Of a DNA stretch of 41,419 bases, positions 39,834 through 41,419 are shown in pieces. Both the position numbers and the translations under genes were made by a program. Numbering within the stretch: the stretch's first letter is position 1; every line of letters starts with the position of its first letter. The notes beneath the pieces were generated by a model. That model made no database searches, was not told where the DNA came from, and saw nothing but the letters and a program-made list of their open reading frames with translations. This DNA is from Chroococcidiopsidaceae cyanobacterium CP_BM_ER_R8_30 (GTDB taxonomy: Bacteria; Cyanobacteriota; Cyanobacteriia; Cyanobacteriales; Chroococcidiopsidaceae), in the NCBI GenBank assembly GCA_019244235.1, contig JAFASY010000158.1, positions 1-41,419 on the forward strand, written 5' to 3'.

Positions 39834-40676
39834 TTGGTAACTTTGGATTCACGAAAGCAAAGGAATCTTAATACTGTGGGCTCGGCATGTATTCAAATTG
39901 TTGAAGGAAATCCGCATCTTAGATCGCTGCTCGGCTGGCACTTGCAACAGGCAAACTATCGAGTATATCAAGCCGCTGGAGTTTACCAGGCACGAGAAGT
40001 GTTTCTAACTCGTCAGCCAGCGCTGATCATTCTGGATACTGAACTACCTGATGGTGATGGAATTGAGTTCTGTCGGTGGTTGCAGCAACAGCAACAACCG
40101 TTAATTTTGTTGTTGTCTGCCCGTAACACTGAAGCTGATATCGTCACGGGGTTGAAGGCAGGGGCAGATGACTATCTAACTAAGCCTTTTGGAATGCAAG
40201 AGTTTTTAGCGCGAGTCGAAGCACTCATTCGACGGAACCGCACACCGCTTGCACCAGCATATCTAGATTATGGAGAACTGCAAATAGACCTGGTGCAACG
40301 TCGGGTTCGTTTTCAAGGTGAATTTATTGAACTCACGCCTCAAGAATTTAGCCTTCTCTACGTCTTAGCTCAAGCTGGTGGAGTCCCTCTCAGTCGCTCA
40401 GAGTTGCTGCGCCGTGCTTGGCCGGACGCTATTGATAATCCACGAACTATCGATACTCATATCCTATCTCTACGTAAGAAGATTGAGGTCCAGCCACGGC
40501 AACCAAGCTTTATCCAAACTGTACGTAATGTTGGTTACCGACTCAACCTAGAAATTTTGAGTTCCAGTGCTACTCAGCCAGCACCCTCAGAGCTGTCTCA
40601 TCAAAAAGTAGCTGCTATCTCTAGAACTAGCCAACTTACCGTTAGCAGTCATGCCCAAAAAAACTATCCGCTCTAG
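39834..40676 (+). CDS. OmpR/PhoB-type response regulator with degenerate acidic pocket
   Basis: A 280-residue DNA-binding response regulator. The receiver domain (residues 18-130) has phosphoacceptor Asp68 (LIILDTELPDGDG), Ser95 and Lys117 (YLTKPF). The N-terminal acidic pair is EG (Glu24-Gly25) instead of the usual ED/DD, so magnesium binding may be weakened. Residues 150-245 are a winged-helix domain (ELTPQEFSLLYVLAQAGG, TIDTHILSLRKKIE, VRNVGYRL). The frame begins with TTG at 39834; a GTG at 39876, with AAAGGA at 39859-39864, is an attractive alternative. No sensor kinase is adjacent. Confidence 0.88.
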   Translation: MVTLDSRKQRNLNTVGSACIQIVEGNPHLRSLLGWHLQQANYRVYQAAGVYQAREVFLTRQPALIILDTELPDGDGIEFCRWLQQQQQPLILLLSARNTEADIVTGLKAGADDYLTKPFGMQEFLARVEALIRRNRTPLAPAYLDYGELQIDLVQRRVRFQGEFIELTPQEFSLLYVLAQAGGVPLSRSELLRRAWPDAIDNPRTIDTHILSLRKKIEVQPRQPSFIQTVRNVGYRLNLEILSSSATQPAPSELSHQKVAAISRTSQLTVSSHAQKNYPL

Positions 40677-40705
40677 CCAAAGCCCGGATGACTTGGTTAG
40701 AGCGG
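40657..40705 (-). terminator. Minus-strand rho-independent terminator inside the end of the response regulator gene
   Basis: The arms CCGCTCTAGCCAA (40668-40680) and TTGGTTAGAGCGG (40693-40705) form a long stem with one wobble or mismatch. On the minus strand the stem is followed by four bases and then seven T (complement of A run 40657-40663), as in a terminator. It would end a transcript from the structured region at 40710-40980. Confidence 0.7.
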
Positions 40706-40980
40706 CCTAGCGGGTCGTCAGATTGGAACCAGACTGCCGGAAGGATCTCCGAGCCAGCCTAGACAGTTAAGGTATCTTAGTCTCTTAATCAGACTAGGAC
40801 TAACTACTAGAGAACAGCCCCGGCACACAGCCGGTTGACTCCAACCTGGTGACCCATGCATTTACTACTATCTATCATGGGCATCACCTCCTCGTTGCCT
40901 GAACGGTCTTATTCTCTAAAGAGAAGAGCTATTAGCTCTGGTGATTGATCACCTTCAATTAAGATAACACAAAATTTAAA
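40706..40980 (-). ncRNA. Candidate structured RNA, several stacked hairpins
   Basis: In 275 bases between two convergent genes I find at least six near-perfect hairpins: TAGTCT/AGACTA (40778-40796), CCGGC/GCCGG (40820-40834), GGTTG/CAACC (40833-40846, alternative), CCCATG/CATGGG flanked by GGTGA and CACC (40848-40888), TTCTCT/AGAGAA (40912-40925), AGAGC/GCTCT (40925-40939) and GGTGAT/ATCACC (40940-40953). No open reading frame of note. A minus-strand terminator at 40657-40705 closes it. Convergent genes do not need such sequence, so a separate RNA is plausible. No known family recognised; strand is inferred from the terminator. Confidence 0.45.
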
Positions 40981-40995
40981 ATGCGTTGTGTAGGT

Positions 40996-41021
40996 AAAAA
41001 AAACCCTACCTCACGGTAGGG
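40996..41021 (-). terminator. psbD terminator
   Basis: On the minus strand CCCTACC-GTGA-GGTAGGG forms a perfect seven-base stem, followed by eight T. It lies 28 bases after the psbD stop, showing that the transcript ends here and that psbC does not follow. Confidence 0.9.
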
Positions 41022-41049
41022 ACATTTTATAAAGTCGGTTGACTAACCG

Positions 41050-41419
<370 letters not shown>

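Follow-up and report, generated by a model that had tools for sequence, protein, structure and literature searches.

A predicted structured RNA downstream of psbD with a short conserved reading frame, probably the local copy of a widespread cyanobacterial RNA family

We analyzed a 41,419-nt stretch of DNA from a Chroococcidiopsidaceae cyanobacterium (the window, always meant at its full length) and found that the region between psbD and a convergent response regulator gene carries an element which, judging from sequence comparison, is the local copy of a class-wide family of cyanobacterial RNAs. These comparisons support a unit with its own transcription, a perfect Shine-Dalgarno (SD) sequence, a conserved ORF of only 17 or 23-24 codons and a covarying, rod-like fold. 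The explanation that we favor, with moderate confidence, is that the structured RNA is translated and acts in trans, translation of the ORF and folding of the rod being mutually exclusive. The family has been reported before, since the element is very likely a homolog of ncl0160 (PMC4734099); what we add is evidence on its structure, gene order and reach, and the rod may already be published. With a rod that holds the reading frame, a link to a 17-codon form and a likely ancestral gene order, a former table entry becomes a system open to experiment.

The element looks like a single minus-strand transcription unit with its own predicted promoter element and terminator (Table 1). We consider its transcript to be independent because the terminator of psbD and a TGnTAnnnT motif both lie upstream of it, and the initial annotation was right to state that psbD has its own terminator and that the element is not the psbD 3' end. 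It also correctly placed a minus-strand terminator over the end of the response regulator gene: the last 20 bases of the regulator ORF overlap the terminator of the element. This overlap would fit an antisense RNA directed at the 3' end of the regulator, one of the two options in the initial annotation, but we regard this reading as exceedingly improbable: across 95 loci, the regulator adjoins the element only in the window itself (the flanks covered about 1.5 kb, some of them cut by contig ends), and the sole other similarity to the regulator is a 35%-identical match located upstream in locus L113.

Table 1. Predicted features of the element and its surroundings, in positions of the window
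Feature	Position	Strand	Basis
Extended -10 promoter element TGTTATCTT	40961..40969	-	TGnTAnnnT motif comparison
Predicted independent transcript, about 298 nt	40657..40955	-	5' end inferred from -10 element, 3' end from T-run
Conserved 5' UTR element GACCGTTCAGG, consensus ACCGTTTAGG	40898..40908	-	Alignment A1
Perfect 10-nt Shine-Dalgarno AGGAGGTGAT	40883..40892	-	Full complement of ATCACCTCCT
23-codon ORF MIDSSKCMGHQVGVNRLCAGAVL, ATG start, stop TAG	40807..40878	-	Homologous 23-24-codon frame in 54/55 loci of the order
Rod 5' arm, GGGTC to CTC, from the last base of codon 8 through codon 23	40810..40855	-	Consensus fold
Rod 3' arm in 3' UTR, GACCC at end	40712..40749	-	Consensus fold
Stop codon and variable apical hairpin region	40750..40809	-	Poorly conserved, length-variable alignment columns
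Intrinsic terminator CTAGGCCGCTCT..AGAGCGGATAGTTTTTTT, hairpin then seven T	40657..40710	-	Alignment place and covariation (helix 6)
psbD terminator, run of eight T	41004..41021	-	Terminator scan; separates psbD from the element
psbD 3' end, upstream same-strand neighbor, cut by contig end	41050..41418	-	Pfam Photo_RC
Convergent OmpR-type response regulator	39834..40676	+	Pfam Response_reg, Trans_reg_C

The region had been described as six or more hairpins in series. It is indeed more structured than expected by chance, with a folding z of -3.41 for the minus strand and -4.12 for the plus strand of the interval originally flagged (none of 100 shuffles as stable in either case) and of -3.29 for the predicted transcript (0/200 shuffles as stable). 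The structure that emerged, however, is one long rod followed by the terminator rather than six or more separate hairpins. In this rod, codons 9-23 of the ORF pair with the 3' UTR and the structure is closed by GGGUC/GACCC; the 5' UTR and the variable apex are predicted to fold into small hairpins of their own. We assessed the fold on an alignment, A1, of 42 of the 55 loci from the order of the window, themselves taken from 57 matching genomes (not G017 and G055). Near-duplicates (L006, L008, L009, L011, L013, L014, L025, L026 and L030) were omitted, as were the diverged L050, L053, L054 and L055, which are without the terminator motif and stand outside the structure count. The A1 consensus fold comprises 44 pairs in six helices with 98.4% of cells paired, compared to 31.6-53.9% in slid controls. 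Covariation among relatives, proposed in the initial annotation as a check, is present: 23 pairs show changes on both sides, where the shuffles average 8.8, and none of the 500 shuffles, which do not keep relatedness, reached any of the five observed fold measures. Much of the covariation comes from helix 3, which joins codons 11-13 to the 3' UTR (7/8 pairs).

Two smaller hairpins were considered as candidates. A start-codon hairpin (CCCAUG:CAUGGG) is possible in 96.4% of cells and none of its six pairs covary; a local CCGGC/GCCGG hairpin is paired in 98.1%, with two of five pairs changing on both sides and about 20 of 500 shuffles doing as well. Both explain the conservation less well than the rod, and they may form too.

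The predicted promoter element recurs across relatives. Of the 55 loci, 44 carry a TGnTAnnnT motif no more than 120 nt upstream of the SD and 11 do not; among background windows taken from these loci, the motif occurs in 193 of 1695. No clear -35 box was seen in the window for this promoter, and a sigma-70 consensus scan of the window did not list TGTTATCTT. At the other end of the unit, the terminator sequence is unusually conserved in A1, and its helix (helix 6) has ten pairs, six of them with changes on both sides. A simple terminator scan did not list this hairpin, probably due to the ATAG that lies between the main stem and the T-run. The scan listed four sites against 1.9 expected by chance, including one that resembles a terminator at 40939-40925, within the predicted 5' UTR; this site is also one of three small 5' UTR hairpins predicted at 40913-40955 (-), ahead of GACCGTTCAGG. 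The outcomes of the two scans weigh against an independent transcript.

The SD AGGAGGTGAT occurs once in the window, where 0.10 occurrences are expected, and GGAGGTG precedes the start codon in all 55 loci of the order. A search for GGATCACCTCCT in the assembly from which the window derives gave no match. GGATCACCTCCTTT was present in five of the seven other genomes searched (absent from G132 and G176), and one match, in a genome of the same family, was confirmed as the 16S 3' end.

The initial annotation had found no open frame here, and this statement has to be revised: an ATG-initiated ORF of 23 codons follows AGGAGGTGAT, below the 40-codon limit of the ORF list. A frame of 23-24 codons with ATG is found in 54 of the 55 loci, the sole exception being L049, where a 1-nt deletion breaks it. 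Among 40 diverged loci, 20 have 23-24 codons, 19 have 17 codons with a stop at codon 18 and one (L103) is unrelated. Sixteen of the 19 belong to family f41, and three of these 16 f41 loci use GTG in place of ATG. L105, L115 and L116, from families f40 and f37, also stop at codon 18, with a TAG or TGA at the rod loop, and their ORFs equal those of f41 in length through other sequence. In total, 94 of 95 loci yielded an ORF (all but L049; L103 included). GGT follows codon 8 in frame in 90 of these (81 of the common length and nine longer), is off by one in two (GGGGT), and the last two have no GGGT.

These patterns bear on whether the element could be a pure regulatory small RNA whose ORF arises incidentally from structural conservation and an SD-like motif. 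The frame is kept, yet codon-position entropies are flat (0.53/0.60/0.61 in 54 distinct sequences among 60 ORFs of 72 nt) without an excess at third positions, which indicates a constraint that lies to a large extent at the RNA level. This constraint and the conserved terminator sequence are what such a small RNA would present. We nevertheless view this possibility as improbable, because start, stop, SD and frame are all kept and the other two frames of the same strand are interrupted by stops in 31 and 38, respectively, of the 38 sequences. In frame 0, none of the 38 sequences has a premature stop, where 2.4 are expected with letters shuffled within columns (P of none 0.036). Frame 0 also has the highest coding score of the six, 0.61 (column-shuffle p 0.02); the next best, at 0.31, is on the other strand. 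The coding test used 38 of the 42 rows of A1, after four gapped rows were dropped and the column block of a 3-nt insert was excluded. The coding statistics are modest, and some of such a signal can arise from conserved pairing.

Conversely, the element could be a plain small-protein mRNA, with the 23-aa peptide as its product and the rod and terminator serving only to stabilize the message or brake translation. We hold this to be possible but doubtful. The perfect SD and the conservation of start, stop and frame agree with it, as do residues S4-S5, G9, R16-L17 and A19-G20-A21, each common to at least 50 of the 54 distinct 23-aa ORFs, whose stops are TAA in 38 and TAG in 16. The lack of excess variability at third codon positions does not, and the last six residues are absent from f41, f37 and part of f40 (19 of the 40 diverged loci). 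Moreover, the 23-codon and f41 forms read the shared GCCGGCTG motif in different frames, which argues against a conserved function of the C-terminal peptide. When four peptides were compared to Pfam and NCBIfam, no family was found for any of them.

We consider a translation-coupled, dual-function design to be the most likely mode of action. The SD and the first codons lie outside the rod, and a ribosome would enter at the exposed SD. To cross codons 9-23 it would then have to melt the rod, as deduced from the geometry. Because these codons form the whole 5' arm of the rod, translation and rod folding would exclude each other, and the RNA would alternate between two states, one translated and open and the other untranslated and folded. 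A comparable design is SgrS/SgrT, a dual-function RNA in which one molecule combines a short ORF with a separate RNA-level role. In the present element, by contrast, the ORF supplies one arm of the main structure.

Absence of the element from close relatives had been set beforehand as one of the outcomes that would refute it, and a DNA search found it in 57 of 60 genomes, its own included. At the level of the class, a covariance model, R1, matched 205 of 242 genomes and 112 of 120 genera; in a phylum sample it matched 137 of 386 genomes, a count that includes one false match; the two samples overlap, and the 42 sequences on which R1 was built match by construction. The false match (locus L103 in G129) lies outside the class and was rejected on account of its unrelated peptide and a match of 118 nt. 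Within the order of the window, 98 genomes of the phylum sample match R1 and seven are among the genomes listed without a match. Carriers with a species name are Hydrococcus rivularis, whose locus (L086) is cut at its end, and Synechocystis salina, whose locus (L087) matches R1. In family f39, six g84 genomes (2.2-3.2 Mb) are among those listed without an R1 match and G538, from another genus, matches; loss in the g84 lineage or strong divergence is possible. One genome, G517, has two full-length R1 matches. Phages gave no match for either the window form or the f41 form, and viral contigs searched with one exact pattern of the window form gave none. Conservation as wide as this is shared by few small RNAs of cyanobacteria, among them, according to PMC4734099, Yfr1 and Yfr2.

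The initial annotation had also considered this the most likely undescribed element of the window, but it very probably belongs to the ncl0160 family, although it has no match in Rfam 15. The Rfam search that had been proposed returned no family at gathering score over the whole window. Lowering the threshold to E up to 10 over 40500-41100 yielded two matches that fell well short of the gathering score, one to CLRN1-AS1 outside the element (E 0.015) and one to snR76 on the plus strand (E 3.5). According to the main text of PMC4734099, which credits the first listing, in Synechocystis PCC 6803, to Mitschke 2011a, ncl0160 has 83 homologs from a comparison of 89 genomes, heterocystous and other, and encodes a conserved peptide of 23-25 aa that was concluded to be likely translated. 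As in our element (peptide of 23-24 aa), a ribosome binding site always precedes the start, which is ATG with some GTG, the stops are TAA or TAG with few TGA, and the distribution across cyanobacteria is very wide (PMC4734099). This agreement in length, codons, stops and distribution is the reason why we hold the identity to be very likely; the comparison was with the published description of the family. In contrast to the present analysis, the main text on ncl0160 gives no pairing between ORF and 3' UTR and no gene order; the alignment is its Figure S1 and the predicted secondary structure its Figure S2, which may show the rod (PMC4734099). Our literature search found no function for the family, and searches with the peptide or DNA letters found nothing.

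Other known RNAs fit less well. Like the element, 6S RNA is a long rod-like RNA, but the element has an ORF; the 6S family (RF00013) matched nothing in the window, nor in 40500-41100 with E raised to 10, and the genome has its own 6S RNA at C223:5482-5664. A tmRNA was likewise set aside, since ARAGORN found none in the window and Rfam gave no match.

The diverged form of family f41 was first seen as weak R1 matches (E 2e-9 to 1e-4). A model built from it, R2, matched 78 of 121 f41 genomes. Among the 20 of the 43 misses that were listed, 16 are genomes of 1.4-1.9 Mb, a size that would suit Prochlorococcus; several genomes of that size do match. The family looks like picocyanobacteria, and its 17-aa loci, judging from size, probably represent the lineage omitted by the ncl0160 survey, which excluded the marine Prochlorococcus/Synechococcus lineage (PMC4734099). 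The f41 ORF has the same layout and a different sequence: the two forms have in common the SD, the start, eight codons, a rod closed by GGGUC/GACCC and an adjoining terminator, and R1 aligns end to end with the f41 loci tried (18 chosen loci were searched). In the f41 alignment A2 (15 of the 16 loci; L100 was excluded for its long apical insert), no rod pair changes on both sides, and the six such pairs among 41 are all in the terminator. Because no rod pair changes on both sides, the f41 rod rests on layout and stability; single-sequence folds gave the full rod in only part of nine sequences.

It is conceivable that the element is a near-universal cyanobacterial RNA that senses translation: ribosomes attracted by the perfect SD would hold the ORF arm of the rod open, and the rod would close into a trans-acting form whenever initiation fails. 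The peptide sequence would then matter little, and this would explain how the ORF could shorten or change frame between lineages with the layout of the rod unaltered. We advance this more specific version tentatively and regard it as rather unlikely.

The f41 form also recalls Yfr103, an abundant structured RNA of marine Synechococcus that is described as of unknown function and of which one strain carries seven paralogs, 290-328 nt long (PMC5069720). This identification was rejected on copy number: whereas Yfr103 is present in seven paralogs, the f41 form occupies one locus in 17 of the 18 matching genomes (22 searched). The remaining one, G176, has two loci, and the two rows of G303 are adjoining pieces of one locus. 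The f41 model starts at the SD, without the 5' UTR, and length is no firm argument against Yfr103. The second copy in G176 (first copy L088) is diverged and lies at G176:C1:2023816-2023978, about 5 kb from the first.

The genes around the element point to common descent of the two forms. psbD lies upstream on the same strand in 35 of the 55 loci of the order and in seven of the 40 diverged loci, including two from f41 (L100 and L101). Downstream, an SLH/OprB porin family is found in 19 of the 55 and 14 of the 40 (four from f41), and a pterin dehydratase family (phhB) in 13 and seven, respectively. One member of each neighbor family was named by Pfam, and the counts are lower bounds, as many loci end at contig ends. 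Loci L110, L116, L119 and L120 have all three genes, from which the order psbD - RNA - phhB - porin looks ancestral.

The recurrence of phhB and the porin downstream on the same strand, in many loci including diverged lineages, could suggest a translated attenuator leader, in which the position of the ribosome on the ORF sets terminator formation and hence readthrough into phhB or the porin. We judge this to be very improbable. In the window, no same-strand gene follows the terminator; the only gene there is the convergent response regulator, to which that strand is antisense. The downstream gene also differs within one family, with a same-strand porin in L003 and an opposite-strand ORF family in L004-L006, L008, L009 and L011. 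Finally, a scan for conserved pairing partners of the 5' element ACCGUUUAGG returned one weak candidate (61% of 41 sequences) and none in the terminator. Regulation of a downstream gene in cis is thus unlikely, given that the neighbor varies and nothing follows on the strand of the element in the window. Returning to the dual-function reading, the element stays conserved whatever gene lies downstream, and for this reason we infer that it would act in trans, as RNA, as peptide or as both.

The psbD gene of the window is itself cut by the contig end, with no psbC-sized ORF listed after it, and the contigs of several relatives also end inside psbD. This suggests that these genomes have a second, near-identical copy of psbD.
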